Origin: Morchella semilibera | Lineage: Eukaryota > Ascomycota > Pezizomycetes > Pezizales > Morchellaceae | Direction of reading: 5' to 3' | Assembly: GCA_009192285.1 (NCBI GenBank) | Contig: WBVU01000004.1 | Coordinates: 1,138,001-1,202,000 of the forward strand | DNA: 64,000 nt | Shown: in pieces, positions 2,614 through 33,790 of the stretch | How positions within the stretch are numbered: the stretch's first letter is position 1 | How the letters are laid out: every line of letters starts with the position of its first letter | Program-made: the position numbers and the translations under genes | The notes under the pieces: generated by a model | What the model was told of the DNA's origin: nothing | The model's database searches: none | Seen by the model: the letters and a program-made list of their open reading frames with translations, nothing else

Positions 2614-2708
2614 GTACAGCGGTGGGTAATAAGTCATCGGACTAGAATGCACGTTTGCAGGCAATATTGTGGCTAGGCTACCCGATGACTTATTACCCAC
2701 CACTGTAC
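2614..2708. repeat. Hairpin element H1
   Basis: Inverted repeat with arms 2614-2640 and 2682-2708: 27 bp with one mismatch, inner sequence GGGTAATAAGTCATCGG, and a loop of about 41 nt. The outer end begins GTACAG. It shares a GTAC-starting end with four other hairpins in the window, but the inner stem is different. Confidence 0.8.
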
Positions 2709-3374
2709 TGTTTACCACCATAAGAACGAAAAAATGCATCAGGGCAAGGATAATTTTTATGGACTGGCGATGAACAAATCATCCCTGTTTCAGTCACTTG
2801 CATTTTCTGGTTCTTTTCATGGTAAACGAGTAGCCTCAATCTTAGATCTCTATCAAGATAGATACATACCTAAAGTATATCGATGCTGAAACCTATGCAG
2901 GTCCAGACCAGCGTTATCCAGGGGGCACATCGAGGCGAGGATAGGAGTGTATCGAACTGATTCTAACTCGAAGGGTCTGCCTTAGGCTCCTTCAAGTCCG
3001 TACACCTATACCTCGAGTTACTTCGGTTGTCCTCGAGGTTTAGATATTTCAATAATCTCCGTTCTCCATTGTATGGACTCAGGCCACTGCTGGTATACAG
3101 TTCTGCGTCTCAAATGAGGCGAGATTGTCGGGTTGTGCGTGTTGATTTGCTTCACGGCGGTAATTTATGTCCTACGATACCCATAGACCTCACACGCGGA
3201 TTTGACCCCGATCCATGGACTATAAACTTCTAGACGTGAAAGTCTACTGATGTACCCGCCCTGAGAAGCTTTGGTATGTGGGCCAATAGTAGTCTCGTGC
3301 TCATCCCCTATTTTGGTGTGGCTAGTGCTATAGTATTTTTCTTATTAGTCCACACCAGCACCAAGCTTAAGAGA

Positions 3375-3403
3375 TATACCGATCGGATCTGGGAACGAGA
3401 CTA
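3375..3403 (+). repeat. Dispersed repeat with CTGGGAACGAG core
   Basis: ATACCGATCGG followed by the core CTGGGAACGAG (3389-3399). The same pair, ATACCGATC plus the core, recurs at 48821-48844. The core alone is found inverted at 4706-4716 and direct at 54648-54658. Confidence 0.6.
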
Positions 3404-4869
3404 GGCCGATAGCACCCAGAACTTCATCAATACCCAGGGAGAATGTTTTTACAATGCGCCGAATTGTAACGAAAGTATTACCCCTGAAAGACCCATAAAT
3501 CCCGGAGTGGACGTTATGGAGATTTGATGTTTGGAATGGGAGGGGAGCTAGAGGTCCGGAATTGGATGGTATAAATAGCGATATTGTATATATATATACG
3601 GATGGAAAATGTGAGGGCAGGGGCCGGGGCGGCAACACCAATACGATATTGAACTTCCTTGGCGCTATTTACTATACAGTATTTAATAACAGTTCGTTCC
3701 GAACTGTCGGCGAATATATATCCCCCCCCCAACTCTACCTAGCTTCTCCTCTATCCTGGGTACCAGGAGGGGCCTGGGTTACATTTCATCACCTCCTTGT
3801 TGACCCCCCCTGTCTCCTGGGTGAGGCCTTATTTACGTTAAATCTACCTCTCGTTGTCCCTTGAACTTTATACTTTTGACCTCCTCACAAGACAGGTTTC
3901 ACTCATGCCTTGAGCGGAGAGCTAGAGTACAGACTATTATTATCCATTATGCTCCGTTAGGGGTTAGGGGGTTACAGTAATCATACATCAATACAACAAG
4001 CTTCCCCTCCCCCTCAACCACCTCTCAGCACCCTCCCCATACGAGGAGAGCACTGTTTGTCTCTAAGTCGCATCCAAGGGGGCCACGGAAATCTTTCAGC
4101 ACCCCCCACGCCTGCAGAAAGGCAACGCCTTGTATTATCTCGTAAATATGTCTTGCTAGACACCGAGCGAGCAGGGAGCGAGAAAAGGTCGGAGATGTAG
4201 TACGCTAGAAATGTACCAAAAATGAAGTACTTACGGAGAATACGACCCCAGCGTTGATAAAGTGTGTAACCTTTCAGAGCCCATACTAAACAAACCTGGT
4301 GGACTAGATAGTGTACGTAGAAATGAATGGATCGATTAATTAAATAATGGAAGTAATGACTCAAAGTATATACAACGTCCACCGAGTGATTTTCCATGAT
4401 ATAGATACCTTCACGGGATATCACTCGACTCTGTCTGTGGTGTGTGTTACACACCTGCCGTATGTTGTTGATCAATTGATACATGTACCGTACGTGCGTT
4501 CCAGATTGTTTTAGGAGAGCAGGGGCAGAGTTTATAATCTATTATATATACATGTATATAATATAACAGGCTCCCGAATTAGAGGTTAAAATAAACAAAC
4601 TGTGTATTCAAGATGTCCAGCCGAAGTTTTGGAAGGCTAAATATAGTATACATACATGTATATAATCTTCTAGGGCTTGGTATTACATACATGTATACAT
4701 GCAATCTCGTTCCCAGACATAACTGGGTTGTGGTTGAAAATGATATAGGAGTAGCATTCTAACAAACAAATATATACTTACTGGTGGAGTCCAGACTCTG
4801 AGGTCGCAATATCCCATGGCCCACCCCCAAGTTTATCTGTCACTACCATTACATGTACAGCCGGCTCTT

Positions 4870-5035
4870 GTTATAGTGATACTTCATATAGTGATACTCT
4901 CGTTATAAGGATAGCAATCGGCGGTCCCGAAACACCCTTTTACCAGTATCTCCTTACTTCTTATAGTGATACTCGCCTTATAAGGATATATTCAGCACAG
5001 ACTTTTCGGTCCCAACCGTATCCTTATATCGAGAG
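4870..5035. repeat. Degenerate TATAGTGATA / TATAAGGATA repeat block
   Basis: TATAGTGATAC occurs three times (about 4874, 4890 and 4961) and TATAAGGATA twice (about 4914 and 4980), with an inverted TATCCTTATA near 5018. Repeated GTTATA/CTTATA half-sites in both orientations suggest worn ends of a DNA transposon. No transposase frame is nearby. Confidence 0.5.
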
Positions 5036-5446
5036 GCGACTGTACTTACCATAACCACCACCACAATAGCCACGTACCAACATCACACCGTATGGTTTGA
5101 GAATGGGACTATCCTGATACCAAGTCCAGCCAAGAAATAATATTAACCCCGGCCCGGGTAATGCATAAAGGTCAAAACAACGCCAAGGTAGTGGTTCACG
5201 CTGTAGAGATGACACGTAGGTACACCCCCTTCGGATCCTCCCACCCACTTTCTTAAAGAAAATCCACAAGATAAGGAGCGTCAATAGGGAAGAGCAAATT
5301 GCATAGGTATCAGGCTATGAGTCTCTTTAGAACTAATCACTGTAAAGTAAGCCGTGAATCAAGAAAGCAACCGACATTAAGGCTAACTTCATCATGACGG
5401 GCAGTCCTCCGGTCCGCTTCGAGGTGCAGAAACCAAGGCCACCCAT

Positions 5447-5470
5447 ATAATAATAATAATAATAATAATA
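5447..5470. repeat. (ATA)n microsatellite
   Basis: Uninterrupted ATA/TAA triplets, about eight units. Confidence 0.9.
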
Positions 5471-8400
5471 CCTCCAAGAAATATACGAGCTCGTGGGACA
5501 AAAGAATCCATGGCCCAGAACCCCAGGAGCCTACCAGAGGGTATCTGCGGTGCCTTACGCAATTGCGTAGAAATGCAAGAGCGCCAGTGCTACGTCGCAC
5601 TCTCTAGTCTAGAGATTGACAATATGGAAGCTTACGATATTGCCTCTATTTTCAAACTGACTCAAAGAACTCCATACAGATGGGGGGAAGCAAAAAAAAA
5701 TCGAGCACAAGCAGCATTCTAGATATTATTATACAAGTCCAAGAGTTAAATTTGTATCTACTTTATGGATTGGGACTTGCTGGAGGAAGAACGTATAAGC
5801 CATATCCATAATATATCACTCGATTATGTCATTACAAAAAAAAACAGGGTATATTCCATATAACCCGGTTCTTCCCCTAGTTCCAGACTCACTTATAGTA
5901 GACTTGGATATGATAGTCAATACAAATAAGGCTAAATTAAAATACTGCAAATATTAATCCACAACCATATGGCTATAGTATTGATCCCAGATCTACAAGT
6001 GGCGCAGGCGGGGTATCTCAATGCATACAACTACCGCCTTGATCCAAGCTTCAAACCTCGTTATCTCTACGATCTCGGCCGCGCCGGTGAGATACGCGGT
6101 TCTTTGTCCTCCTGACCTTGTTAGTTCTATGTAGGGGTGCGGTCAGGTCTTGTAGTCAACGAAACACTGACGTTCGGGCAGTCAAGTAAAAGCCTGCTTA
6201 TAACCTTGTGATTGATACGAGCCGGGTAATGAACGCCGGTCCACTAAAATGTTTGGGTTCGCGGCTGCTCCTTATAACCAACTGGTACATTTGGCCATCG
6301 TATTAGGCGCACATAAGGGCGGCTATAAGCGTTATGTGGGCTACCTCATGATAGCACCAAGATTAGACTTTTGGGCCCAATTAGATGAGTCATGTTATTA
6401 TGCATCTTAAATTACCTGCTGCAGAAGATCTTGGCCGTATATAAGGTGTCTGATGTATGTATACATATAGTATACAATGTCTTAATCTGTGCGCTGGGCG
6501 TGATATTTACGTACTCGCCCTCTCTGAGTAAGAGAATCTGATCCTGACAGCGTACCTATTGGTTCTCACTAACACGCGGTTCTCGGCCTCTCCACAGAAG
6601 CTTCAACGGCTATGCGCCATATACCCGATTCTCCAACTATACTAGAATGAGCTTACTAAGCTTAAGGTTGATTCTAGCCTTGCCTTGTAACGTCTGTCAG
6701 GCAATAAGAACTACAGGTACTTAGTCAAGGGGTCAATTTGGGCGGAAGGATACATGTATATTTTTGGACGGTGCTTTCCGTGGCTTAGGGCCGCACACAG
6801 TATTCTTTTACCTTCAAATCCCACGGCCCAATAATTAAATGGTTACCCCAGATATTCATATTCGAATCTATAGTCACAATTATCACCTGTTCCGATCGTT
6901 CATGGGTTAGATTATGGGAATTCATCAATTGTTCGTTGGGCCGCAGTGCATAGGCTTCCCCCACCTATGCATTGGTACTTAATTCTAGACTACGAACGCT
7001 CCATCATTGTACTCTGTCTATAGACTACAGTACCTTCACCTGCATGTGCCAAGGCGCATGTGCATATCTCTAGAACTACACAATTTACAACGATAATGAA
7101 AAATCCACTAAACCTTAGTGGTAGGTGACACGGGCGCTCAAGCCTTCAGATTTATTCATGGCTGGCAAGTGACGAATATCGCTATATACGATTTGCGCCT
7201 GCGCTTGACTAAATACTTGAATAGGCTTCTCCAGACGAGTTCTTGGGCGGGAAATGGGAGGGCCGCCTCGCCCCACTGCGTTTCTAAACCAGGCACGAGA
7301 GCCGCGTTACCCATGGTGCCACCACCCTGATGTCGCGGCACATAGGAAATTGATGGAACAAAGTAATAAGTAATCGATAGCCGACCAACACACCTCCACG
7401 GTCTACTTGGATGAAAATACAACTAATGCTGACGGTTGCCACCACACCGCGTTGTCAAAGCGTAAATGATGTGTATCGTGCTCACCCATAGAAGAGGTAC
7501 TCTACATTACATCCATGTACCTACATATACATACACTTCAAATAGAAAAGAGTAATCTTTATAAGGCTGGTGAGAAGACCCGTTTGGGATGGCCTGAGAC
7601 AGGTTGTAACGGAATCCGAGAGCTCATTGGTGGAACCAACCACACAAGTAGCAACTGGCTGTTCTGAAGCGGCGTGAAGCTGGAACCCTTCACACTAAAT
7701 CCTTCAGCTACATGTACTCTAGACACTCACAAAGGCCGCTTAGGGCGTCTCAGGACAGTTTTTCATAACATACTGGGCAAGCATCTCGCACCAGCACGGG
7801 TCATAACGCGACAGCCGCCTGCATAATGACTATTAGTTAAGTAGCTAGATACCTATCAACTACCCCAATTTTATTTCCGACTAATCTGTGCCATATGTGC
7901 ATCAAGACACAACTCAACACTTATCGAGTCCGTGTCGCCTTGTTGCTGTGGTATGTTGGTTCTTGGCCAACACCTCATGGAATACGATATGATCCATAGA
8001 TTACAAAGTAGTCGGATAATTCCATTATTTATGGTGGTTGTGGTGGGGTCTAGGGATCATAGACTATACTGACATAAATTTTGGTAGATTACACCTTTTA
8101 CTAGCGACCAACCACTCAGTGTTGGACAAAGGATTCAACCACTTAAAAAGACATTAGAAATTATCTCAAGATGGAGCTCAGAGAATTATAGAATTTTTGA
8201 GCCCACTTTCCAGGTGTGTGTGATGTGTTTTTCGTGGTCTTTCAAGGGTTTCTGACTTTGTATGTAAATTTTGCGTGGTGCAGCGTCGCCTGTCGCCTCG
8301 ACGTTCGATACCCTCCCAGTTAGAGCTGAACTCATAGATCGCGGGAATGGTAGTGGTTTGCCTCGAAGATTGCATGCATGTTACAGGCGGGCGTGTCTTT

Positions 8401-10352
8401 AAAACAATTTCCACTAAAGGTGGTGGCCAAGGCACCGAGTGCTTCGCTTCCAGCGTATGTCGGCTCTGCAGCTGTAAACCTCGCTTATTATAAGGATCTC
8501 GATCGACCACAACTGTGGGTGAGGATACGCATTTTTTGCAGCCTCTTCATTCGTATAAGCCTTCAATGACAATTTCAGCAGCCCCCATTTAAAATCAGGA
8601 AACAATCTGCAGACATTTAGCATATTCAATATCCCACAGCAACGGTCGTTCTGAAACACTCTTAATATTGCCCTGTACAGCTGTGGCCCAAATGAAAAAT
8701 GATGTGGATGGCCTGTGATACACTACATAACTTTAAATCTACTTTTACCTGCTCCTCGCAGAAAGAGTGATGCTCATAGACGCCGTGCCGCCGGTTAAAA
8801 GCTGTTTTGGTGTTTAAGGAAGTTGCCGGTAAATGACCTTCAAGTGGGCCAGTAACATTCCGCCCGGCCTTGCCCAAAGACCCAGTAAAGGGCTCAGTCG
8901 CCTATTATGTTACTCTACATACATGCCTGAGCAGAGTAGAGCACCAAACCCTTCAACTCTATATTTATTTATTCCCCCCCCATGCTTTCAATCGAGAATA
9001 GCTAATCAATGTGTGGCTCCCAATATTTAGCCTACATGGTAGGGCGCTAATCGAGCAACCGTGATCCAATTGAAAGCGGAATTTCAATTTTCACGAATCC
9101 TGTATCTTGAATTCGTAGTTGGATCGTCGTTGGCTTCGCCCCTGTTTATCTTCACGGAAAATCGGCAGTTATGGCCAAGCAAACCAAAGCAAGAACTTCC
9201 CCCACCTTTTCCCCTTTTCTAGGGTCAGAGATGGGGAGGATCTTTTCGCCTAGAGAACCTAACCACGGTCGTTCGCGCCATATTCTAATCGAAGTCTCAA
9301 CGGTTTTTCCCACCCGGTAGCAACCAAGCGGAACTCGTATCGAGCTTCGTGGTTATCCTTCTTTACTAAAACGAGTACATATCTATAATACTTTGTTTAT
9401 TCGAGCGGAGTCAGTACTCCCGATTGTGCGTGCATGTAGGATGTACTCAGCTGGCGCACCGCCATACCACAAAAAAGGGCCCAGATGAAAGAAGTCAGCG
9501 GCCAACCCTAGACTTTGCCACCGTGTTTATTTGCCTACGGCCACCACCTGTTTTGATGAAGATTTCCCCTGCTCTCTGTTGAACACATGTAGGTACATAT
9601 CTACATGTACCTGTATGTACCTAGTAGGGAGGTGGAGGTTAGTTCACGGTATGTTTGATGCCAAAAGATCTAGCTTCCAAAGGCTAGAACAAGCGAAAGC
9701 GGGCTTTCTCGTGAGTTAATTTAGTTCTCCTGGTCCTAGTCAAACCACGTTGAAGCCGCTTAGAATTGACGTAGTAGGTAGTTAGGTATAGGGCTAAAAC
9801 ACTGCGAAACTGCACCTATCAACCACGTGGTACTGGAGATGGGCTTACCTGTTAGAGCACCCGTTGGCTCTTGCGTCTTATTTGTTCCGGTAGTGTAAAG
9901 GGAATTGGAGCTGTGTGTGCGCGGTGGAGGATGGGGGTGGATGAATGAATGGATGGGTGGTGTGGGTATGGAATATGGGCCAGTTCAGCTACCGGTGCAT
10001 TAGTGCTTGCGCTTCAAGCGCATAGTTCTATCAAAAACCACGACAGGCGATTATCGGAAGTATCTGTGTATTTAAGTAATTAGGATCGAGATAAAGTAGA
10101 ATCATCTTGAATGAGTAGTAAATTTTAGATAAATGTTTGTACCCACTCATGTGCCGAAGCTGGTAAAGCTACATGTGCTTTTAGACTGGCCTTCCATCTT
10201 GGTAGAGGCGGAGTACGGGGTACATGCTTACACGATCGGTCAGGAAAAGATGCGCTGGTTACGCGGATAAGAACTTGCGCTAATATAAGTACGACTTAGT
10301 CTCGTACCCATCCCCTACGAGCAGTGCCGTACGACTTACACTACTAGTATAT

Positions 10353-10402
10353 GTACTACGGGGGGAGGAGAAAGCTGGAGACTTTCCCCTACCCCGTAGT
10401 AC
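10353..10402. repeat. Hairpin element H2
   Basis: Arms 10353-10374 and 10382-10402 with a loop of about 7 nt. The end is GTACTACGGG, matching hairpin H3; the inner part is a G-rich stem ending in AAAG. Pairing is imperfect, with one or two bulges. Confidence 0.65.
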
Positions 10403-11928
10403 TCTGGATCCTGAAATAAGCGGCGGAAGTAAAGGAGGTGCAATTACAATACGCGCGAGGTGCAGGGATATAAACGTACTACATAAAACAACCCCTGGTC
10501 CAAGTTACACTGTGTACATGTATTTTCGATACCAGCTGAAGTTCTCACTCAAGTGTGTTGTGGTATCAATAAAAATGTTTCTACCACAAACATATGATAT
10601 TAATTTCTATAGCCTTAATTCTCAGCTCAAGAGAAATCATTTCTAGGGAAAGTACAGTATATGTCAATAGATTTTGACGGCTGCCTGTATGGACATATGT
10701 ACATGTAGGTATTGTTAAAATATACATACATGTATAATATAATGTAGCTATTGCTTTCAGGATCAGTCGCAGCTATTTGAAGGAGACCATTTATATGCGA
10801 TTAAGATCCTAGGTTTCCATCGTCGGCGAACTAACGCATCCCACCATCGGTTGGGTTTTTTTGCATCAAAGAACCCTGGCTTCGAAAACATATTGCACCT
10901 TAGATTAGCGACGGGTACAGAAAACGTCGTTGGTATAGGGCCTATTGCACTAAGCCATTCGCAACAAGGTCACAATATTAGTGAGCAGATTCAGCCGGAT
11001 GCCTTTTCGTATCAGTAATCTTAACCATGTCATCTGCAAACTCCTCTCTCTGTTTTTGGATGAACCCCGAAGGATCTGCCGGGCCTGTCGGGTGAATAAA
11101 CGCGTGATTCCTGGGTTGAGTACCTACTATAATGAGTGCTGACCCTACTCGGGTTTCCTCGAGTCGGTATTTTTTTTTTAAGGCTGAGCGTCCCAGGAAA
11201 CCTTGGGTAAGTTATTTTTTTTTCTTTCTCGGAGGACCAGAAGATATGCCCTGCGCCGTGCATATGTGAGCAGTAAGTTTCCCCTAGAACCAAAGGACGG
11301 GGAAACAGGTGGAAGCCAGAGAGATAAATAGTGACAGGAATGCTTTTGCTGTATGTAGCTAGTGTATTGGGGAAATTGCAATTTGCTGCCCGCCGGGATC
11401 GATAATTGGTACGTGCATCCAAAATCCAAATAGTCAGGGAGAGCAATATTACTTCCTATCAGATCTTAGAGACGCTGGATGCGTGTGACGTCTTTTTGCC
11501 GCACGCTGCATTATCACAAATCCATCGTGTTTCGCGCCGCAAGACAACAGCACTAGTAAGTCGGATAACATACGCCGGTATGGTGTGGTGACGCGCGGGG
11601 TACCTTGCTTTTTTCCACCCTTTTTTCCTTTGAGTAAAATACGTGCAAAGAGGAGAGAAAGGTCTCATATTCTCCGCTGGCCCTGGCCTGCTGAGATGCT
11701 CGCTGTGCTGCTTCATATAGTAGCTGAGCGAGAAATTTCCGTGATTTTTATTTGGGAGGGTGGAGATTTGTGGAGTACCACCCGAAGGTGTGCTTGCAGT
11801 GGGAGGTGTCGCGCATGCTCCGGCAGATCAGGACGCTTGTGCGCATAAACTTGCTTCAGGAATAGATTTGGCCTCTTTTTTTTCTTTTTTTCCCTCGCCT
11901 TGCAGATCGGATCTTTTCGCTTGGTCGC

Positions 11929-11969
11929 TTTTTTTTTTTTCTTGAAAAAAAAAAAAAAAAAAAAAAAAA
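11929..11969. repeat. T12 / A25 snapback tract
   Basis: A run of 12 T (11929-11940), then CTTG, then about 25 A (11945-11969). This can fold into a tight T:A hairpin, and it accounts for the lysine- and phenylalanine-rich open frames around it. The exact run length is uncertain because long homopolymers are hard to sequence. Confidence 0.8.
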
Positions 11970-13081
11970 TTCGAAAAAACGGTTTATCGAGGTAAGTAGA
12001 GAGCGGTTTTTGCATTTTTCGGCCGAAGTCTTTATATAGTGCCTGTTTGTAATCCTTTATTGAGAAAAGGTTTTCCGGATGAGGCGGGAAATTTGGGTTG
12101 GATACACGAGCGAGCGACCCGCTCGTTGCCAGAAGAATTTTTAACGCAGGCCGGCTCGTATTTACAAGGACCAAGAAGCAAAGGTATGTACGCGAACTAA
12201 ATACTGACGTTAGTGAGGGTAATTGTACGAGATGTAAGGCTCCGTCTGGATCAGGAATCGTGAATCGGTGATAAAAAATTAAATTGGTCTAGATTGTAAT
12301 AATGTTTTCATCATCCCAACAGTTGTATTATTTTATTTTTGGTCTAGAGCTTTGAGAATTTTATTTAGAAAAGCTTGTTAGAGTACATGTAGTATGTCTC
12401 CAGTGGCAGTTCGCAACAGAAGGGGAAAAAAGTAGAATTTCCAGAATCATGATCCCCCCAGCTTCTTGAACTGTCACGATTTGGGTGGCTTCCAGGCGGA
12501 GCCTAAGACTTCTCGGGCCTCAACGGTCCAATAGCCCCCTGGTCAGGAGGAACAAAGTATACGCGTATGCGGGAGTACAACCCTTGAGAAGAACCGAATA
12601 GTACCGTTTCCCTCGGGGTATTTTTATTTCTTCCCCCACTCTCTATAAAATTGTACATATCCCCGTTCCATGTCCGGAGGAAGGTGCACAGAAAATCCGA
12701 TTATCATATAACGTTATGTAGGGTATATATATTATCGAGCTGGTGGGCCAACAATATTCCTTATTATCAACATTGGCCACAAAATGATGTATGTAAGTAG
12801 GTAGACCCAGTCCCTTTGGAAATGTTAGGAGGTTACATGTATTTTACACTTCGAATACTCCAGGCTAATGTACATGTATGTAAATCATGATCTTACTCAC
12901 AAGTTCTGTACTCAGCACTGTACTGGCCACGAGCATGACGACTACCGATGACTTGTAGGAAGATCAAGCTGCAAGAACAGTTGTATGGCGGAGGAGATCT
13001 GATCCAAGTTGAGTTCTCGGCTGTATGAAGTCTGTCTCGTGTTTCCCCGTTGTATTTAAATTCAATCTCTCCGAAGAGGAA

Positions 13082-13164
13082 GTACTATGGGTGTAGGGGT
13101 AAGTCTGTAGACTGCTGTTGCAGCCGCGACCACTGTCTACAGACTTACCCTACACCCGTAGTAC
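13082..13164. repeat. Hairpin element H3
   Basis: Arms 13082-13112 and 13135-13164 pair over about 30 bp with one mismatch and one bulge. The outer end reads GTACTACGGGTGTAGGG and the inner stem TAAGTCTGTAGAC. The 22-nt loop contains TGTTGCAGCC. The right end runs directly into TACATGTA. The loop closely resembles that of H4. Confidence 0.85.
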
Positions 13165-14459
13165 ATGTATATATGAAATGGGAACAACCTTCCGAGCCCA
13201 TAAGCGCCTACTCAATGTAACGGTGCGAGTCCAGGGTGGCATCCGGGCATTTATTGGTGATCCTTGTTCGCCTCTCGGTTATGCATGAGGTATATGGTAG
13301 TATCGGTATTTGACCTTTTGAAGTCAAAGAGTTCTTACATTGGGGGAAGGGTGGAGGGTCCTTTTCCTTTGCTTCATTTTGAAATCACACGCTCTTACCG
13401 TTCCCCAAACGCCGAAAATAGAGCAAGGGCTTCGAAACGCAGGAATTGGATCATAAGGGCACTGCCCTGCGGCAGCGCAACACCGCATCGTTCATTCAGA
13501 GGCGGCATCTTGTAGGTCAGCGGTACTTTCCTCATAATTTATCTCTCACTCATCCATTGGCTGACGCGGCATTGCTATTGGCTGGTTTCCCCCAGTGCAT
13601 GAGGGGTGATGTGGGTGGGCAACCAAAACCGAAGAAGACAGCAGACGACAAGACAGTAAGGCACCAGCCGACTCGCTGCCGCGGCGAGAACAGCGGCATG
13701 GGGGGGGGAGGGGGGGATGATGGGTATCTCGCGACTGGCGCCACTAGAACTGACTAGAGGAACAACAGAAACATCCAGTTCAGCACCACCCACCACCCAC
13801 CACCGAGTGCTTGCACAGTAGCGATTCGGAAATAATATCATACGTAGTAGGGTACATATTTTGAAGGATGAGAGACGAAGAGGGGGTGGGGGTGGGAGGG
13901 AACATCATTTTGTGCGGGAATATCTTGATCGAGACACGTATTTCAAATTAAATTAGATTTGAAATCCTTTATTCCCAAAGCGAAAAGATAAACAAGCGAC
14001 TTGAAGTATTTGCTGGCGCGGGAAGAAGGCTTAGGTGATCACATCATCAGTACGCCAGTACTTAGTGAGGTTCCGGTCCAAGAACGGGTATACATAGGTA
14101 TCACCACATTTGGCGCGAAGGACGCACGGACTTGGATAATCAGTCCGCAGCCGCGTTTGGCGCAAAGAAATGTGCGTATCGAAGCGGGTTAATGTATGTC
14201 ACACGCCAGTAGAAGAAACCTTGCACCGCGCTGCGCAGGTTTTGATCCTTGTAAGTCAATCCTAATATGCCACCCGTTCGCTGATCCTGGCTGGCTTCAA
14301 CAGAGGCCAGTTATCCCCCCCCCCCTGCAACAGCGCCAGACACTTAACTCCACGCGCTGCACTCATCCCATCAGGCCTTTCCTTTCTGCAGAACGCCTTT
14401 TGATTTTTTAGTGGCCTAGCTCCGCATCGTTTCGTAATACCAGTACCGCTCCAGCGTTT

Positions 14460-22917: not shown

Positions 22918-23439
22918 TATTAGGTTTTCAGAAAGAGTGGAGAGAAAAATTCTGCACGGGCTGGGAGAGGAAGGGATATTATATGGAGAGGGGCGATTGA
23001 TAAAGAGTTCGCGGTGATGGCGGGCGGGCGGCGACTGGTTGGGGTGGGTTCTAGATGCCAAGATTACTGCCGGCTGGCGGTCCAAGGATTACTTAGCCAA
23101 AGATCTGATTGGCAGAAGACCTGGTCTGGGTGCATGACAGTTATTACTACCACTCCTCCTTGCTTCTTTCCAGTTCAATCGTCCGGGACCACCGAGACTC
23201 CTAGCACTGAATAACGATTTAATGTTTAAAAGATCAAAATTGTGGAATGGCAAACGAGTGATAAATCATGACTCTGGTAAGGTGCTGTAGGTATGTACCT
23301 ACATGTATGTACGATACAAACACATGCATGCTAGAATCAGGATATACTGAAAATTTCATTCTTCGAGTATTACACGTGCGTGCTAGAGAACAAGTTTCAA
23401 GTCGATAAAAAAAAACCTACGTTGCTGTTGGATATACTA

Positions 23440-26233
23440 TTACTCAAAGCTAGGCAACTCGTAAGTGTCCTTTGGATCATCCTTGTGCTTTAGGATGTAC
23501 TCCTGATGCCTCTTAATCCTATGTTGGAACTCCGCCATCAGCTCTACCAACCGCACGCTAACCTTCTCGTTGAATTTGGCAGCACCCTTGACTGCTTGAA
23601 TTGCGACATGGTATCTTGATACGTGATTGCATAGCATCATCTGTCCCACCCGTCTACATTAGATTCCTCATATCTATTAAATAGGTAGCTGGTCTCAAAG
23701 AATACTCACATCGAAAGGCGTAGTGGTGCTGCCCTCTTCCCTGTACCCCTCGATACTCACTCTCTCCAAATTGGGCCTTCCAAATAACAAGCCTTTCAAT
23801 TCTGTTACGTATCCGTGATAATTGAAATGAATACTCCTATCGTTTGTGAAAATCGCGTCAAAAGCAGTATCGTCCATGGAATGTGGGTGCGTGTTCTCCG
23901 CACCAAGAACCATCAAATCTGTCACATTAACAACACGGACTCTGATCTCCGGGACTATTTTTCGAAGCAATGCCGCTGCAGCGATAACTTCGAAGGTAAC
24001 CTCAGTACCAATCCCACACAGCACAACATCGGGGTTCAGGCCTTCGTCCGTAGATGCAAATTTCCAAATTGAAGCACCGGCCTTGCAATGCGAATCGGCC
24101 TCTGGAGGAGAAAGCCAGACTGGCGTGGGTTGTTTCGAGCCTACCATCAGGTTGGTGTAGTTGCGCGATCGAAGACAGTGGGCCATTGTGGATAGGGCGC
24201 AGTTGGCATCTGGTGGAAGATAGACTCGCGCTGCTTCGGGTTTCAGGTTTAGGACAGCCCCAATAAAAGAGGGGTTTTGGTGTGAATGGCCATTATGTTC
24301 TTGCCTGGTCCATGTGCTGGTCTCGAGATAGTTCAAGCTTGCCGTGTCCTTTCTCCAGACAGTCTCTCGGCCCTGAAATATTTAGCATTAAAGGTAGCTA
24401 TAGCTAGGTTTCAGCGAGAAAGGGGTGGCTTGACTTACGATCTTTCTGAACTTACTGTATTGTACCATCATAGTGTGAATAATTCCCAAGAAACTTTCAT
24501 AAGATGGGAACAAAGCAGATCTTCCCGTAAGTGTATAACCCTGCATCATACCTGAATATCTGTTAGTTTATTATAAGGGGCGAAATAACTAAAGGTATCA
24601 AAAAAGTTTACCTTGGCACGTGTGCTCGCTCAAAATTTCAATGACTCTCCCGCCTTTCTGCCTCGAATGTTTATCCCACTGGAAATTTCTTCCAGTGTGC
24701 TTCAACACTGCATCTAATTTATTACTCTCCAGCTCATCAGGACTAAAAATCCTCATGTCATTTGGGTTTCTCTGCAGGACCTGGTCAAGTAATACCCCAA
24801 CGGTCTTCATGCTGCTAACTTGATGCCCTTTTTCCTCGCCCATCTCTGTCCAATTTGGAATATCAAGCGGTTTGTATCCAGCAAATGCATCCTTTATCAC
24901 ACCCATGCGCTTTGATGGGTCCTTCGGAATGATTTTTGTAACATTATCACTCGGCGACCCATCGCTTCTGAATAATGTATCCGGTTGATATTCTCTCAAC
25001 CACTCCTGGAGTTGCCTAAGCTCCTCATTATCACTGCTAGCTTTTGGTAGCGGAACCTGGTGAGAGTGAAAAGAACCTTCTACGAATTCCCCGTGGACTT
25101 TCTTTGGTGCTCCCCACCCTTTTGGGGTCCGTAGAAGAAGGACTGGCCAACGGGGCTTTATAATTGGGTTTCCGGAGCGAGCCGCCTTCTGAATATGTTG
25201 TATTTGAGAAACTGCCCAATCGATTGAAGCGGCAAAGTCATGGTCAATGCTCTCAAGGTCTTCAACGAAGCGGACTTGGTATCCATAGCCACTGCAATCC
25301 AGCGTAAGCATACCTTTTGTATTGTGGTGTTGCGAGGGACATACGTGAACAAAGACACAAGTTCTTCGTCATCCATGCATCCATAGATTGTCCTCTCACT
25401 GATCTTAAAGCCGTTTATATGGACAATCGGCAATATAGCACCTGACTCTGCAGGATCGATATATTTATACCCATGCCAGGCCCTGTCCATTTTAATTAGA
25501 AATTAATTCAGGTACGAAACTTTGAAACTTACGTCGCAGTAGGGCCAGATTCAGCCTCTCCATCGCCAATGACTACAGGGACGATCAAATCCTTCTTATC
25601 CATAATCGCACCAAACGCGACCGCTAGTGCGTACCCAAGCTCGCCGCCTTCGTGAATGCTTCCTGGAACCTGCGCATTGATATGGCTCGGAAATCCGCCA
25701 GGAGTGGAAAACCCCGTTATCAGGTTATCTAGACCCCTTCTATTCAACGGGTACTGTTCTGGGTAAAAATGTGCTAGCGAGCCCTCCAACCACAAAGTAG
25801 CTAGAATAGCTGGCGCTCCATGACCTACAAGTTACTAATGATTAGCCCTTATACTAGGAGAACTGCAGCTGAGTGTGGTAGGATGATAGATACCTGGTCC
25901 AATCACAAATAACATCTCAGATCCCCATTTTTCGATTGCTCTATTTAAATGAGAGTAAATTAGAGTTAACCCTGGACAGGTCCCCCAATGACCCAGAATC
26001 CTTGGCTTGATATCCTCTGCAGTAAGGTCCTTTTCCAGCAGTGTATTATCACGCAAAAATATCATGGCTGCCGCGATGTAGTCCGCTGCCCTTCGAAAAT
26101 CTTGAAGGGCTGAAACTTCCTCGTCTGAGAGCGCATTTTTAGTATTGAGCTTCACTGAAAGCTCCAAAAGTCCGGGAGGTAGATGTGAACGAGATGGTGA
26201 AGGGTTTGGTCTGTCAATTATTTGACCAGGCAT
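23440..26233 (-). CDS. Phosphoketolase (xylulose-5-P / fructose-6-P), thiamine-diphosphate enzyme
   Basis: Cleaves xylulose-5-P to acetyl-P and glyceraldehyde-3-P (or fructose-6-P to acetyl-P and erythrose-4-P). Seven exons: 26233-25894, 25824-25533, 25482-25345, 25291-24612, 24551-24439, 24372-23710 and 23640-23440. All six introns (50-69 bp) close in frame and give 808 aa, normal for the family. Landmarks: LGHWGTCPGLTLIYSHLNR; VIGPGHGAPAILATLWLEG; the ThDP motif GDGEAESGPTATAWHGYKY with NGFKISERTIYG; RTPKGWGAPK; TLTGRSALFPSYESFLGII; and TRQEHNGHSHQNPSFIG with VYLPPDANC. The C-terminal domain ends FDAIFTNDRSIHFNYHGY and SRYHVAIQAV. No targeting signal is seen, so a cytosolic place is inferred. 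Acetate kinase, the next enzyme, lies 3 kb upstream on the other strand. No flaws in the frame. Confidence 0.96.
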
Positions 26234-26981
26234 GTTTATTTAGTTTCTGCACGTTAAGAATGTATAAGGATGGATAAAGGCTCGGGTTTGAAAGGAAGAA
26301 GACCTGAGGATAAAAGAAGTGCCTATCTACCTTTTACAGAGCATGAATTATTAGCTTGCGTTTATCCTGATTTTCCCTGTCGCGAGAGATTTTTTTATTG
26401 ACGTCAATCTCTAACTAGCAAGGCAAAAACCCCTACAAGAAATGTAGGTACGTACATCGACGTCATAAGACTATATCTTTGTTCATGAGAAGAAACTAAT
26501 CGCACCGCCGAGCTAGCCTATGATTCCTGATCGTGGCGGTTGAGCAGTCGCCCTGAGCTTTCCGGGGATGCCAAGATATTAATGTGGGTTAGGGTCTCAA
26601 TGACAATCGACCCTTAACTACATGTACGGGTGTAGGTGGCGACAGTAGGAAGGAAGTGTTGCAACCACGGCCAGTGTCGCCCTACACCCGTACGTAGTAC
26701 TCATCGTTGCAACCAAAGTTCCGACTTTTTAATTAACGACTGAGTACTTACATGTACAATATGTCTTACATGTCCATAGAAAGCCCTCTCACACTGAGAC
26801 TTTCTGGTAATATCTTTTTGCAGAACAACTATATGTAGATAACATCCAGCCCCAACAGCTTCTGGGGTCTGAAGACTTTCTAACCATAACAGTCCTCTAA
26901 GAATTAGAATCAACACAAAGCACAGCAAAAATCCACAAAAGGACCGGAATTCCATCTTCGTGTGTGCAATGTACCGAGACA
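26234..26981. other. Phosphoketolase promoter region
   Basis: Upstream of phosphoketolase. Contains hairpin H4 and two TACATGTA copies (26619, 26750). A short TGACGTCA-like site (TTGACGTCAA, about 26398-26407) resembles a bZIP/CRE half-site arrangement; its use is inference. Confidence 0.45.
26624..26693. repeat. Hairpin element H4
   Basis: Arms 26624-26644 and 26675-26693, outer end GTACGGGTGTAGG, inner stem GGCGACA. The loop holds TGTTGCAACCACGG, matching the H3 loop. TACATGTA overlaps the left end and GTAGTAC follows the right end. It lies about 390 bp upstream of the phosphoketolase start. Confidence 0.85.
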
Positions 26982-27769
26982 TTAAGGTAGATCCTCATAT
27001 TCTTCCCTGTCATAGCGTCCCCTGTCACGGATCCAGTGACAATACAAATAGATTGGGAGGATTATGAAAAATGGAAAGATACAGACGACAAACGTACAAA
27101 TGCGCATCGTCTCCCAAGCCTCTCTTTTGATTAGAATATTTGAGGTCGAACATACCCTCTGTGTATTTGGGCCCATAGCTAGCACTATCTTGACCCCATT
27201 GTAAGAACCTAATTGCTCCTGTAGTATGTTGATTGCTTCGCCATAGTTCCTATTATATAAGGGAACCTCCCATTGCTAAAGAGCGAAGCTTAATACTCAT
27301 TGGAGTATTGAAGAAGACATTAAACTTACCTTGCTCATTGCCTGTGGGACGGGATATATAACCCCCTGAATACCGTTATTTCTGGCTCGACCCTTTTTAG
27401 AAGACACAAAGAGCACTGTAGTTAGTACATGGTGGTAAAATCAGGATAATGGATCTATAGATAACGTACAACATTCTCGAGCCCTAGTGGTATGTTAATC
27501 CAATTCCAACCAATGCGCACCAGGTGTTCACTGCAAGCGCCCTGAGAATAGAGGGACATCTTAAAGCTATCCTGGATTGAAAAAATCCCTGATGTAATGC
27601 TCAAGAAAGCCCCCAGAAAGACATAGATAGCTAGGCTTGAGCCAAGCATGATGGGAAAGTAGGGGGCAGGCGAGGCCATCGAATCTGTTCCTGGAGAGTT
27701 GCAGAGGTGCTCGGAAATCTTTGAGAAATTGAGACAGCTGATAATACTGGAAATTATGATTTTTGGCAA
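26982..27769 (-). CDS. Hypothetical membrane protein, three exons, 212 aa
   Basis: Not recognised. Exons inferred: 27769-27511, 27415-27330 and 27275-26982. The exon 2-3 junction is strong (AAG|GTAAGT..TTTAG|CAATGG) and joins VIYPVPQAMSK to QWEVPLYNRNYGEAINILQ. Exon 1 to 2 closes only with a weak donor (GTTGGA at 27510); the better-looking donors give the wrong phase. A good branch site, TACTAAC, precedes the exon 2 acceptor. Exon 1 has a hydrophobic stretch FPIMLGSSLAIYVFLGAFLS, and exon 3 has a second, CTFVVCIFPFFIILPIYLYC, followed by a charged tail rich in Arg, Asp and Glu that ends in DLP. The middle, KIVLAMGPNTQR, is soluble in character. Probably two membrane spans. It sits between phosphoketolase and acetate kinase; a link to acetate metabolism is only suggested by position. 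Confidence 0.5.
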
Positions 27770-29229
27770 CAGAGAGAACCTTGCTCTTAATTAACCATGA
27801 AACGAATTGCGTGTTAGGGTCGGTCTATAGATGGCCATGAGTGTACGATGATGGGTAAGTTGGTGGAGTTAGAGCGGGGCTGATGCTTTTCAAAAGTGTC
27901 TAGCCATTATCCCGAGATCATCATATGCATAAAGAGAGGAAGGGGAACTTTCAGGATAAAATTTTCTTAAAGATTTAGATCACACGTGGTCACTCGCTTG
28001 AGAGTTTTTGGCCAAGTCGGTTTAAAGTCTGGTCTCAAATCTTTGATGTACTTGGAACGTACATGTATGTATTATGCGGGGACTGTGATATACAGTACCA
28101 AAAAGAGGAGTGGGATCACTACGGTATTCTCGTTGGTACGCTAGCATTGCGGTAAGCATGTATTTGTACAGTACTCTTCCTCTAATGCCGATTTAATTCG
28201 GTATTTATCACTAAATTCCGTAGTCCTATGGTAGTGATTTCACCCCATCTTTTCATACTGTAGTTCGTGATGTGGCACAGTGAAATAGTACCGAATTAAC
28301 CCAAATATACCGTAAAAAAAAAGCTATAACGCTACCGCAGTCGAGGAGTGTTGATAAATACTCGATTCCATTACCTTTTCCGCCATTGTATATACACACA
28401 TACATGTCTATATATGTAGTAAGCCTGTAGACCTGGTGAAACAATCTGGTGACAATTTGCTCTCGCTGCGTGGGTGCATGATTATACGTAACCAACCCCC
28501 TTGGTGGATTTTCTGTTATGATGTATGTATTCATGTTATGGCATAATGGCGTACCGTAAATACATGTATACAAATAGCCCATTAATCGTATGGTAGATTA
28601 AATGAATTTAGGAAAGATACATGTATTATGTAGGTACATATGTACTAGGGGTTCCACCTCGCGACCGCGAGTTGTGTAGATTTTGGGGAACAGCGGTAAA
28701 CTAATCCTCTCTCTACGGTACGTACATGTAATTATGGGAGCCTTCGGCCCTCCCTCCCTCCCCCCCAATTCCCGCCAGTTTAACCTTTCATTGCCTTGTG
28801 ATACAATTCAGTTCACAGGTCTTGATGTGTCGTGCTTAGTCAATACCTCCGTCACTCTCAACCAATAAGGTTGCTATGCCAAGGAGTGCGAAAATGTCAT
28901 AATCTAGTACATAGTAGACCCCGGGGTACATGTATGTAAGTGCGTGTACTTTATGTAGTACTTAGAGCCTTCTAAAATTCCCCTCCAGTCCTATGAATTT
29001 TTGTACTGGTCCGGATAGCATCCGAATAAACCTAGCCCTAACGTGTATAATCTTGGTACGATACGTCATCTAGAAAACAACCACCTGTTTCCTTATCGAT
29101 AAGAGGCGTAGGTGACGACATCCGCGAAATAGCAACAAGGATACTCATGGTCTTTAGCTCATTTATTAAATCTGCCAGTTACCATCATGTCGTTAAAGAC
29201 CTATTGAACTTTCACAAGAGATACCGGCT
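27770..29229. other. Intergenic region upstream of acetate kinase
   Basis: Divergent upstream region of the hypothetical membrane gene and acetate kinase. Five TACATGTA copies (28060, 28562, 28619, 28723, 28928) in 0.9 kb, the densest cluster outside 4.4-4.9 kb. No gene is supported. Confidence 0.55.
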
Positions 29230-30795
29230 ATGTCAACTGTAAAGCTAATCCTCGCTATCAACGCTGGCTCATCCAGCGTGAAGTTATCCCTCTACTCATC
29301 AAACCCTCCCGACTCGGTACGGAAAGCAGAAGTCCCATGTCTTATCCTTCAGTCATCAATTTCAAACTTGACATCTCCACCTGCAGTTTTCTCTTATGCC
29401 CATACCGAAAACCCTTCTACGTCTAGCAATATAAAATCCAAGGAATTACCGGATGTGAATTCCCAAGAGGATGGGTTTAAGCATTTCCTCGAATATCTTT
29501 CCAAGGACTCTGATTTAAAGCAAGTAAACAGCGGAGAAGACATTACTTTTGCTTGCCACAGAATTGTACATGGAGGCGATTATGAAGGGCCAGTCATCAT
29601 TAACGAGAAGAGTTTAAACTATCTAAAAGAACTTACCGATCTGGCCCCGCTGTAAGGATCTCCATAAATGAGGTTATGCCGCTAGATAGGGTGAAAAGCC
29701 ATTACTAAGTTCAAACTGAAACCAAACAATAGGCATAACTCGCCAGCCCTATCACTCGTCCAGACAACGCTCAAACAGCTTCCAAAAACCACAAATATTG
29801 CTTATTTTGATACCAGTTTCCATACTTTGTCTATGCCCGAGCACATAAAGACATACCCAGTGGATCTTAAGCACGCACGCCGCAACAAAATCAGAAAATA
29901 TGGGTTTCACGGCATTTCTTACAGTTTCATCGTGGCGGAGGTCGCGGCATATCTTAAAAAAGTAGGGGGTTATTGATATTGTAAGAGAAGTGTAACTAAT
30001 TCGGATATTACAAAAGCCTATTGAAGAAACTTCGATTATTGCCCTTCACCTTGGGAGTGGCGCTTCTGCTTGTGCCATACGGAATGGAAAATCACTTGAT
30101 AACTCGTGAGTTTCAAGTACCCTCCCATTTAAGCCAAACCTATTATCATCCGGGCAGAGAAATGTGTTAATACCTTATATCAGTATGGGGTTGACGCCAC
30201 TTGAAGGGCTCCCTGGAGCGACACGTAGTGGCACCGTGGATCCGTCACTGGTGTTTCATTACACTTCCAACGCTGGTAGAATATCACACAGTGGCACTGA
30301 GGATATGCATATCAGTAAAGTACTTTAGTACCATCCATTCTAATACCTCACTTACTAATTCCCAGTAAGGCCGAGGAAATCTTAAATAAGAAATCCGGCT
30401 GGTCATCGATCATTGGTACGACCGACTTCTCGAAACTCAAATCAGATTCCCCTCCCCCGCACAGCGAACTTGTTTTCGACTTGTTTGTGGATCGTATCCA
30501 GAACTACATTGGTGCATACTTTGTGAAACTTCGCGGTAAGGTTGACGCCCTCGTGTTTGCTGGGGGGATAGGTGAAAAATCTTCTGAGTTGAGAGAAGCG
30601 GTCGTAGATGGGGTGCAGTGTTTGGGTTTCTCATTGGACAAGGATGCAAATGGGACAAAAGAGGACGGGAGTGGAACTGTTATGGATATTGGCGAAAGCG
30701 TGAGAGCTCCTAAAGTCTTAATTTGTAGGACGGATGAGCAGTTTGAAATGGCGAGAGAATGTTCAAGAGACAAGAAATTTTGGAGCGAAATTTAG
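29230..30795 (+). CDS. Acetate kinase
   Basis: Converts acetyl-P and ADP to acetate and ATP (reversible). Five exons: 29230-29651, 29733-29961, 30017-30105, 30184-30319 and 30370-30795; introns of 50-81 bp, all closing in frame, give 433 aa, as usual for the family. Landmarks: N-terminal LILAINAGSSSVKLSLYS (the NxGSSS phosphate site); CHRIVHGGDYEGPV; FDTSFHTLSMPEH; KIRKYGFHGISYSF; IALHLGSGASACAIRNGKS; LEGLPGATRSGTVDPSLVF; and VDALVFAGGIGEKSSELRE. The last acceptor is AAG at 30369, not the CAG four bases upstream, which would introduce a stop. No signal peptide or PTS1 (end KFWSEI), so cytosolic by inference. Pairs functionally with the phosphoketolase at 23440-26233. Acetate kinase is uncommon in fungi outside species that also carry phosphoketolase. 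Confidence 0.96.
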
Positions 30796-33790
30796 TAGTT
30801 GTTTGCCTGTAAGATGTAGCGAATACCTCAGTTGATTGTGTGGATTATCATCTAAAGGTTAGAAGTATGTAGCTGCCATTGTAGCTATGTTGCTGCGTGA
30901 GATCGTAGGTACCAGGTGTTGAGGGTAAGTGATCAGAATCTGATAAGTGAATGTTGCGGTGGATACGTGTAAATTCTCTTATCAGATTCTGATCACTTTT
31001 CGCTACACCCTAGTACATACAACTATTTCATGGGGCCCCGACGTTGCATAAAATGTAGAATTACTACGATCCATTGGATAAAACAACCCGCTATACACTG
31101 CTTACAACAAACGCTTTTGTTTTCATGTAGAAGAAGTGTAGAGGGCATTAGGCCAACTGCCGAAACGACTAGTTCGAAGGCATGTAGCCTGAAACGAGAA
31201 CCTTGTTTAACCGGTGCATACAGTACTTGCGGCGGAAATAAGTTTCCCCCAAGTTTGTGTGAGAAAACGCTGTTGCAAGACAGAAGTGGTGGCAGAAACT
31301 TATTCTCGAGGCAAGTAACTCCCACCATCAATTAATGTTTAGGTTCGCAGGTGTCGTATATGTATCCTAAGTATATCGTTTTCTGGAGAGGTACGACGTC
31401 GTACACACTTGCGCTGTATTCCTGAAAAGGGAGGTCCGTTGCACATGAGCAAAAAGGATCTAAAGAAAATTATGAAAATCTAGATGACTGAGTCTGATTC
31501 GTAGGCATATATTATATGATTGGATTTTCCCAGTATCCTATGGCAGCCCTGGTTTCTTCGATGCAGCAGTATGTGTGCCTCCAGTTACTGAGATCTTATC
31601 AATGCGTTTCAATAGATGTCTCAGACCTGAACATACAAGTAGTACAATTAAGCTAGAGCTTTGATACCTCGACGCCACAAAAATCTACTATAGAGTCCGA
31701 GAGAACGGCTGGCATTCTTCTTGGGGACATAATCACCCCCCCCCCCCCCCATAGTCATCAGTTGCACGGTTATAATATAAAGCTCCCAAGATCGATTTAT
31801 GCATGATAGAGGAATGGTCGCTCTTAAACAATTATAGGTAGATGATAGTACTAGCTGTAAGATTGGTAGGTAACATGTTAGAACTCAGTAATTGGAAGGA
31901 CTTGTGTAAGATGATGTTGTACATGTAGTTTAAGGGAACGATCATGTATGGAGTGCCAGAAGGTCAGGGGGACAGCGGCAGATATCTTGTACTACCTCGT
32001 ATGTGGTTTGTTTGGGTCTCAGAGTGAAGAGTTAGACTTTTAAACTTCTAGGACATGCGTACTGCCAATAATTGTTATTTTCGTAGATATAGCCCACACG
32101 GTTTATTTATCTCACTTGAGATCATCAGTATTACATGTAGCTCCTTAATTTCTAAATGGCACTATCCGCACAGCTTCATTCATCTATATCTGCTATGTGC
32201 GGATCCTTGGCTCGGCTGCCTACTCTGTGTCCAGTTCATCCTGAGCCACGGGAGTGTTATGCAGTGCCCTCTCGTATATCTGCTGCTTCCCACTACGCAT
32301 ACGCGGCGGTTTCCTTGTTGGTAATCCCTTACACCCACAGCCCTAGCACGCAAATGAAACATCGTCATGCAGATACTTAAATGCTCACCACCGTTGTTTT
32401 TCAGGTGGGACACAAGGCCTCCCAACGCACATCAGGCCCCCCAAGTACAACCTTTGACAAGCGACCGCATGGGTAGCGCGCGAGAAAAGCTGGAGGAATC
32501 CTTGTAGGTCCTAGGTACGGACCTCAAAGTTCTCTTTCCCCACCTCATCAGATCCAGGGTCCCAGGTAAATGGTCAAGATAGTCACAATGCATCACTCGG
32601 AGAACTGGGAGGTGACTGTGCACTGGGAGAGGCCCTTAGGATTTATGTGGGTCCTTTTACCATATATAAGGGATGCCCATCGACATAGAATGCCTAACAA
32701 ACAGTATATAGCTATGGGATACAATCGAATAAGGACGCCGGCGTCTCTACCAGGTACCAGCAAATGAGTACCTGCGTTCCCATAAAGTGCCCGGGGTAGT
32801 ATCTCCTCTATATTAGAGTAAAATTAAAATATGTGTATGCCACAGAGAGCTCACTGAGTTAATATTAATACTACCTGCCTCCTCTCTTCAAGGTGAGGTT
32901 GCTTGCTGTGGGAGAATTTCTCCGCATCCATAAAGACGACGTATCCGACAACTCTAGCCATGCACATTGACATCAATGAGGCCAATTAATGAGGCATGGT
33001 ACATACAAGTATGTCTTGAGGATGTAGGTATGTGATACGATGAAGAAATTATACAGTGTCCCCAGTGCATACTTTATTAGTATGTCTGTACTACCGAAAA
33101 CCTGATACGGCCCGCCATTGAATCGGAAGATACGAGAACTAGTGCTGTTAATATTATTCACTATATTAATACTAGAGTGTATAAAAAATCCAAGCAAATC
33201 ATACACAAAGAAAGGAAACTGAACCACATCTCAGTCAAAAGTCGTCTTTTTCACTGTTTATATCCCACCATCGGAGCTAGAGGATTGGAGGGGGGACTTG
33301 CCCAAAACAAGGGATAAACCGGGCAGCCAATGGCCCGGCTGTTGAGTCGCAATTCACAGCACAGGATTGGTTGTTGCTGCCATGGGGGGTGTAGACCGAA
33401 GCGAGTTGGACGTAGTAGTAGACACCTTGGTGGATACACCCCTCACCCTTTATGCTACCCCTAATGCCTAATGGGTGGTAGGTTGGGCACCTTGAAGGAC
33501 TGTGGATGCACCACCACCACCAGATAGATTTTTTCCCGCTCGTGGCACTCCCCCCCACCTCCCCCTCCCCCAAAGTTGTCCACCATTTCTCTCCTTCTCA
33601 TTCCTACGGACTCATGATAATCTGGCCCTGCATTCTCGAAAAACAATTCCTTGTCCTCTTATTCAAACCGTCATCATTTATTGCTAGTTTTCTAAACAAG
33701 TTCTGGCATTTGAAGGTTAAGGTAATATATATTTTCTGCCCTCTTTGGATTGGGTCTCAAAATCAAAATACTGACTGGCATCAACAGGAA
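30796..33790. other. Intergenic region of about 3 kb
   Basis: No supported gene. Contains hairpin H5, a run of 15 C (31736-31750) and two TACATGTA copies (31921, 32133). Open frames up to about 110 codons show no family signature and overlap each other on both strands. Confidence 0.55.
30909..31016. repeat. Hairpin element H5
   Basis: Arms 30909-30947 and 30978-31016. The inner 20 bp pair perfectly (AGTGATCAGAATCTGATAAG), while the outer end GTACYAGGGTGT-like part has mismatches. The 30-nt loop contains TGTTGC at 30952-30957, as in H3 and H4. It lies about 110 bp downstream of the acetate kinase stop. Confidence 0.85.

Follow-up and report, generated by a model that had tools for sequence, protein, structure and literature searches.

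The genome described here, that of an ascomycete-like fungus, carries short foldback elements, designated family A, whose related subfamilies are unusual in that most of their differences are paired, a change in one hairpin arm being mirrored in the other as if copied from it. Copies are dispersed and share common ends, the loops of subfamilies A1, A2 and A4 are related, and stem differences are mostly two-armed between subfamilies, whereas within them they are nearly all one-armed. With some reserve, we consider it probable that these elements are MITEs of the Tc1/mariner type in which one arm is now and then made to match the other, template switching across the hairpin being the likeliest route, before the element is amplified. 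How transposon ends stay matched during sequence change is an open question. Here, subfamilies whose commonest length is the same coexist in one genome; their outer ends are the same, their loops are related in part, and their inner stems differ from one subfamily to the next while matching between arms, so that hairpin-templated homogenisation can be tested against selection by ancestral reconstruction.

Hairpins of the window and their families

The first-pass annotation of the window (the whole 64-kb stretch of DNA analysed) placed five inverted repeats at the positions listed below for H1 to H5, and all five were confirmed there; I5 is a further short foldback outside the five.

H1: 2614..2708, unstranded; family B element, 95 bp, with 27-bp arms GTACAGCGGTGGGTAATAAGTCATCGG
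H2: 10353..10402, unstranded; 50 bp, left arm ending in GGGGGGAGGAGAAAG, right arm CTGGAGACTTTCCCCTACCCCGTAGTAC
H3: 13082..13164, unstranded; family A, subfamily A1, 83 bp, stem GTACTAYGGGTGTAGGGGTAAGTCTGTAGAC
H3 loop region (approximate limits): 13113..13133, unstranded; core TGTTGCAGCCGCGACCA
H4: 26624..26693, unstranded; family A, A2-type, 70 bp
H5: 30909..31016, unstranded; family C, 108 bp, perfect 21-bp inner stem AAGTGATCAGAATCTGATAAG
I5: 31224..31317, unstranded; further short foldback, starting TA-CTTGCGGCGGAAATAAGTTT

The single-stranded DNA folds of all five hairpins were better than those of 200 out of 200 of their own shuffles (z of -5.2 to -9.4). Scanning the window for paired GTAC-ended hairpins recovered H1–H4 and one more at 56114-56154, with none in any of 20 versions of the window made by a first-order Markov model; H5, with its asymmetric outer ends, was missing from this list. 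The five have terminal inverted repeats (imperfect at the outer ends of H5) and lengths of 50–108 bp, below the 500 bp bound for MITEs and with no room for a transposase. H3 is 7 bp shorter than the usual family A length of 90 bp. By eye, the left arm of H4 is short of about 8 bp and its right arm of about 10 bp, so that this hairpin is read here as a shortened A2-type copy; H2, compared by eye with the element at C1:504822, looks like a relative of A4 that has undergone an internal deletion. The layout of I5 resembles that of L059:1396-1480, with an end match reached by 23 of 2000 shuffles.

The five hairpins had been described as one family with unrelated stems. We reject this reading, because H1, H3 and H5 each fall in a separate multi-copy family (B, A and C, respectively), with 40 scored places each in the 56.8 Mb genome, duplicated contigs counted (for family B, 40 among 74 candidates). 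The copies found with each of these three hairpins carry that hairpin's own stem and, duplicated contigs aside, are dispersed with unrelated flanks. The H2 search returned H2 itself alone and hence no dispersed copies, and H4 was found at two places in the genome only, with one other close relative (L032 at C21:2873219). The ends of families A and C are related (0 and 6 of 2000 shuffles), no relation between the A and B ends was detected by shuffling (1015/2000), and the ends of A, B and a family D are unrelated to each other.

Further copies, on which the annotation had made its proposal depend, do occur genome-wide: allowing three mismatches at most, the 23-nt A end by itself matches 477 places (reversed control, 0). 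The two-ended A pattern matches 67 places (control, 0) and a looser layout, GTAC...TAAGT...ACTTA, 460 on both strands (control, 91); all three counts take in duplicated contigs, and a single element may yield two places in the counts of 477 and 460. From the two-ended pattern we took 45 of the 50 listed of 67 places, omitting five on duplicate contigs (C10, C13). In all, 74 A-type strings were collected; L009, L016 and L025 were omitted as duplicates, and L001–L003 were left out of the second collection step, as they were already in the two-ended set. For family B, five of the 30 loci were dropped (four duplicates and one truncated), leaving 25 copies.

GTAC flanks both ends of the elements, with TA inside it, and the GTAC common to the hairpins is probably the insertion site. 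The first base is G at the left end in 28 of 29 A loci and at the right end in all 29 (L002–L030, duplicated contigs included). Insertion probably duplicates TA or GTAC, two possibilities that are inseparable because the empty site reads GTAC either way. In 12 locus pairs on C12/C13, C21/C22 and C9/C10 the element is present in both members of every pair, so these pairs, which showed no empty site and could not have done so, served solely for removing duplicates; over about 3 kb, 11 of them have no mismatches and one has two, and three contain gaps (34, 23 and 14 bases).

The families of H1, H3 and H5 are well supported as MITEs, short foldback non-autonomous DNA transposons, and they are probably of the Tc1/mariner type. 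Compared with the mimp end motif as given in the published extracts available, the B1 end matches 13 of 16 positions (chance about 5e-4), or 14 with a C-to-T variant present in several copies (about 9e-5), and the A and C ends match 7 and 8 of 16. Transposase matches in the genome comprise 96 DDE_1 and 69 DDE_3, and 57 of the DDE_3 matches exceed the cut-off; among the A-end matches listed (100 of the 477, inspected by eye), none framed a transposase match as an autonomous element would.

Loops and stems of the family A subfamilies

Family A comprises at least four subfamilies (A1, A2, A3 and A4) of equal commonest length, with the outer arm GGGTGTAGGGGTAAGT in common. Their inner stems differ, yet both arms match within each subfamily, and the loops are of about 26 nt. 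With loop strings picked by hand, each pairwise comparison of A1, A2 and A4 gave 0 of 2000 shuffles, and A3b against A4 gave 4 of 2000. The A3a loop showed no detectable relation to A1 (1931/2000) or A2 (1947/2000), and A3b was not clearly related to either (219 and 179 of 2000). The loop-sharing reported in the window holds for H3 and H4 (A1 loop against H4 loop, 0/2000), but the TGTTGC of H5 is at chance level as a common loop (C against A1, 792/2000; C against H4, 295/2000). The contrast drawn with ordinary MITEs, in which ends and loop are kept and the stem is replaced symmetrically, likewise fails for the five hairpins as a set, since they belong to three families; it survives among the genome-wide A subfamilies, where it is invisible from the window: equal ends, a related loop in three of the four subfamilies and mostly two-armed inner-stem differences.

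The central loop that A1, A2 and A4 share besides their ends, and the inner length of 76 nt that is the most frequent one in all four subfamilies (54 of 70 strings, although just 3 of 8 for A2), would not be expected if each subfamily had been born independently from its own autonomous element with a long terminal repeat, with no conversion inside the MITEs. The unrelated A3a loop and the unrelated ends of A, B and D would fit such births, as would the many DDE transposase matches and the long terminal repeats of fungal Tc1/mariner elements (36–70 bp in Sclerotinia, in the available portion of PMC4188875); on balance, we regard separate births as quite unlikely.

The arm changes were counted in 45 of the 74 strings (27 A1, 3 A2, 10 A3 and 5 A4), after omission of 16 strings of other length, nine duplicates and four unclassified strings; in copies found through the pattern, the search itself dictated the outermost 8 bp. 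Among paired columns 9–25 of the 76-mer, eight differ between the A1–A4 consensuses, and seven of these (17, 18, 19, 20, 21, 24 and 25) change from one Watson–Crick pair to another on both sides, a count biased towards two-sided columns by the definition of the stem through pairing. Column 12 of A4 is the only one-sided one; column 4, outside the counted range, is likewise one-sided in the A4 majority (five copies). By contrast, single copies of A1, A2 and A3 compared with their own consensus gave 34 one-armed cells and one two-armed, and the 25 family B copies gave 30 and one, that is, 64 against 2 in total; A4 was kept out of this count because its majority mixes outer ends. Fisher tests (7:1 against 2:64, p = 1.6e-7; adjacent columns merged into four blocks, p = 7.5e-5; family A alone, 7:1 against 1:25 distinct changes, p = 1.2e-5), all counting column 12 of A4, give values that are too small, as the cells share descent; the tests also set columns against cells. 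The neighbouring positions 20–21 change together on both sides between A1 and A2, and B1 and B2 have four differences, each in all four arms of two B2 copies.

In an alignment of 17 rows chosen by hand, 97.2% of cells pair (87.3% in shuffles) and the covariation score is 0.224, against 0.050 in shuffles and at most 0.051 with slid partners; column 20 carries AU, UA, CG and GC, all four Watson–Crick types. Weaker measures were less distinctive: the number of two-sided pairs was reached by 16 of 500 shuffles and that of pair types by 52 of 500. Strong covariation and stable folds are what conserved RNA hairpins or small-RNA loci, the latter raised by the annotation, would display. However, the window has no Rfam match at gathering score, the copies are scattered, each bounded by GTAC on either side, and their flanks are unrelated except on duplicated contigs, and the mismatches have no G-U bias (15 G-U among the 34 one-armed cells of A1, A2 and A3). 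A small-RNA-like locus is thus unsupported, and we consider the RNA reading very improbable; a DNA transposon can yield strong covariation, which alone is no proof of a functional RNA.

The two-armed pattern also fits selection, as it does separate births. Were both arms binding sites of the transposase, or the hairpin itself required, one-armed mutants would amplify poorly and it would be mainly compensated sources that found subfamilies, and differences two-armed between subfamilies and one-armed within them are expected if matched sources alone amplify well. However, six of the 32 A1 strings, each from a different place, carry the same one-armed A-to-T change at position 61 (for five of them the visible flanks are unrelated), and family C was amplified despite unequal outer arms (24 of 24 readable loci of 30). 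Symmetry is therefore not strictly needed for mobility, which makes selection for pairing a less likely cause; the two-sided A1/A2 change at positions 20–21 would, moreover, require four point changes. We find selection for matching arms rather doubtful.

Proposed homogenisation of the hairpin arms

Template switching or arm-to-arm conversion, already suggested in the first-pass annotation, is also the explanation that we favour; how the arms are homogenised, the involvement of a transposase, the switch of template and the succession of events are all inferred. The elements would insert at GTAC sites, probably duplicating TA or GTAC, and the outer 16–20 bp of each arm would be held constant by a requirement of the transposase, while the inner arm and loop drift. 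Occasionally, as the DNA is replicated or repaired, a switch of template from one side of the hairpin to the other would copy one arm onto its partner, altering both members of several stem pairs together and leaving the ends and much of the loop in place. A hairpin repaired in this way might then amplify as a new subfamily (A1, A2, A3, A4; B1, B2). Among the copies compared, none was caught in mid-conversion. Loop inversion was considered as a template-switch footprint in family C and rejected, with none inverted among the 27 loci of 30 readable by string test, all in one orientation. More tentatively, foldback MITEs may evolve by jumps, a possibility to which we give limited credence: a single template switch would symmetrically rewrite both transposase-facing inner arms, bypassing an unfit one-armed intermediate and driving a radiation of swapped-stem subfamilies.

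Comparison with known systems

The double-hairpin elements of chytrid mitochondria are mobile and have stems that vary with compensation, as here, but they are mitochondrial and are not known to have transposon ends. The family is described in none of the available portions of PMC8794818, PMC4188875, PMC5579170, PMC4168063 and PMC2229807. The mimp elements of Fusarium, mobilised by the Tc1/mariner element impala, are, according to the extracts available, likewise short, non-autonomous elements with inverted ends in a filamentous fungus, and the start of family B is close to their published end motif. However, mimp elements are about 180–220 bp, whereas those described here are 50–108 bp (mostly 90–108), and, unlike mimp, almost wholly hairpin, with GTAC at both ends and swapped inner stems between subfamilies; given these lengths and a best end match of 13–14 of 16, we rejected identity with mimp.

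Template switching has been reported, in the accessible text of PMC8794818, to fix stems with the loop retained. In the RNA-gene hairpins of that study (Monttinen and Loytynoja 2022), as here, several stem pairs change together and the loop may stay; those cases are RNA genes enriched in 4-nt loops, whereas here a DNA transposon would be the substrate, its loop measuring about 26 nt, and the copies compared include no ancestor–descendant pair. The foldback transposon Galileo of Drosophila, as presented in the accessible part of PMC4168063, belongs to the P superfamily and has target duplications of 7–8 bp, unlike the hairpins described here, but its ends are also more conserved than the remainder, and an insertion in one of its terminal repeats later becomes part of both.

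Three families of foldback elements

The assembly containing the window (C20:1138001-1202000) comprises 56.76 Mb in 23 contigs, and six of the ten window proteins scanned had Pfam matches, including Zn2Cys6, Fungal_trans and P450, which points to a filamentous fungal host, probably an ascomycete. The five inverted repeats proposed in the first-pass annotation were confirmed at the following positions:

H1, 2614-2708, family B element
H2, 10353-10402, putative A4-type element
H3, 13082-13164, family A element
H4, 26624-26693, putative A2-type copy
H5, 30909-31016, family C element

In single-stranded DNA folding, each beat all 200 of its own shuffles, and a scan for GTAC-ended hairpins found H1, H2, H3, H4 and one other in the window, with none in 20 random Markov versions. 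The loop described as common to H3 and H4 was present in both, but TGTTGC of H5, put forward as a shared loop core, was no better than chance.

The five hairpins had been regarded as one family. However, H1, H3 and H5 represent three separate families. The copies retrieved by each query (40 scored places each, among 74, 125 and 85 candidates, respectively) had that query's stem, as in ordinary MITEs. The H4 query yielded one close relative, and visual comparison suggests that H4 is of A2 type, with arms shortened by ~8 and ~10 bp. H2 matched only itself; compared by eye, its sequence resembles that of an A4-type element with the left arm running straight into the right arm. Raw copy counts are inflated by some contigs that duplicate each other almost exactly in the parts compared. 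Over 12 compared pairs of 3-kb stretches, contigs C12/C13, C21/C22 and C9/C10 were near-identical at similar offsets, so the assembly either retains duplicates or represents very similar nuclei.

A genome search in which GGGTGTAG and CTACACCC were the sole fixed parts of the pattern matched 67 family A places (control, 0), and the outer arm GGGTGTAGGGGTAAGT was mostly common to the 50 listed. Four subfamilies differ in inner stem, and 70 of 74 A-type strings were classifiable (76 nt long in 54 of the 70).

Inner stems of the family A subfamilies
A1: CTGTAGAC
A2: CTGGCGACA
A3: GAGAAGACACC
A4: CTCCAGAACTAYGGCC

The A1, A2 and A4 loops were related (0/2000 shuffles for each pair). Of the two A3 loop variants, A3b was related to A4 (4/2000), without clear relation to A1 (219/2000) or A2 (179/2000), and A3a showed no relation to A1 (1931/2000) or A2 (1947/2000). 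Two A-like hairpins, at L083:1601-1688 (inner stem GAGTAGAACG) and L089:1816-1904 (inner stem GAGAAGTCACC, different outer arm), hint at more subfamilies.

Other repeats were also observed. The 64 kb window contains 48 copies of the palindrome TACATGTA, where base composition predicts ~1.3, and genomic loci L001-L094 (251 kb, duplicates removed) contain 170; in each of the two sets, just one 8-mer is commoner. A short foldback beginning TA-CTTGCGGCGGAAATAAGTTT lies at 31224-31317, ~200 bp from H5, and L059:1396-1480 has a similar layout.

Arm changes between and within subfamilies

Single copies decay on one arm, whereas steps between subfamilies mostly involve both. Eight of the paired columns 9-25 differ between the A1-A4 consensuses, and seven are Watson-Crick on both sides. 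In the A4 majority (n=5 copies), columns 4 and 12 differ on one side only, which counts against the two-armed pattern; column 12, the exception among the eight, makes the contrast slightly weaker without altering it. By contrast, A1, A2 and A3 copies showed 34 one-armed changes and one two-armed change from their own consensus (~0.9 two-armed expected by independence in A1 and A3), and the 25 family B copies showed 30 and one. The four positions differing between B1 and B2 were found in all four arms of the two B2 copies compared. Fisher tests of the contrast gave p = 1.6e-7 (columns versus cells), 7.5e-5 (neighbouring columns merged into blocks) and 1.2e-5 (distinct changes in family A alone), with the caveats that cells are related by descent, that the search pattern itself fixed the outermost bases and that pairing defines the stem in the first place. 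In a 17-row alignment, the covariation score was 0.224 (shuffles, 0.050; slid partners, <=0.051) and one base pair carried all four Watson-Crick types; for two weaker measures, the observed value was reached by 16/500 and 52/500 shuffles. Concerted arm change between subfamilies is a real feature.

Distinct changes from the majority in A1 and A3 stems comprised 17 A-to-G or T-to-C and three G-to-A or C-to-T, a bias opposite to that of repeat-induced point mutation, which may reflect which state is ancestral.

Proposed mobilisation and arm copying, with precedents

These elements are dispersed, with matched arms and GTAC at both ends, which fits target duplication and GTAC preference alike. When duplicates were excluded and only loci retaining GTAC at each end were considered, 37/114 insertion ends had AT in front of GTAC, versus 33/271 GTAC sites in the window, suggesting a ATGTACAT-like target preference. 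Mobilisation would be by a Tc1/mariner transposase, given the 96 DDE_1 and 69 DDE_3 matches in the genome and the likeness of family B ends to the mimp motif. By-eye comparison of 100 of the 477 A-end places tied no autonomous element to these ends.

One-armed lineages amplify, as one such change is carried at six A1 places, and selection therefore does not strictly require perfect pairing. The outer arms differ from each other in the abundant family C (24/24 readable of 30 loci). Together with a published mechanism, these observations suggest that one arm may be copied to the other by template switching, which is reported to remake the stem while keeping the loop (PMC8794818), although the cases known so far favour 4-nt loops. 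No converted copy alongside its direct parent was found among the copies compared, and no inverted loop in 27 readable of 30 family C loci.

The elements are ordinary in kind, being MITEs. As far as our literature searches went, concerted hairpin-arm change between subfamilies is undescribed; the nearest precedents, from partial accounts, are Galileo, with an insertion in one terminal repeat and later in both, and RNA hairpins maintained by template switching.
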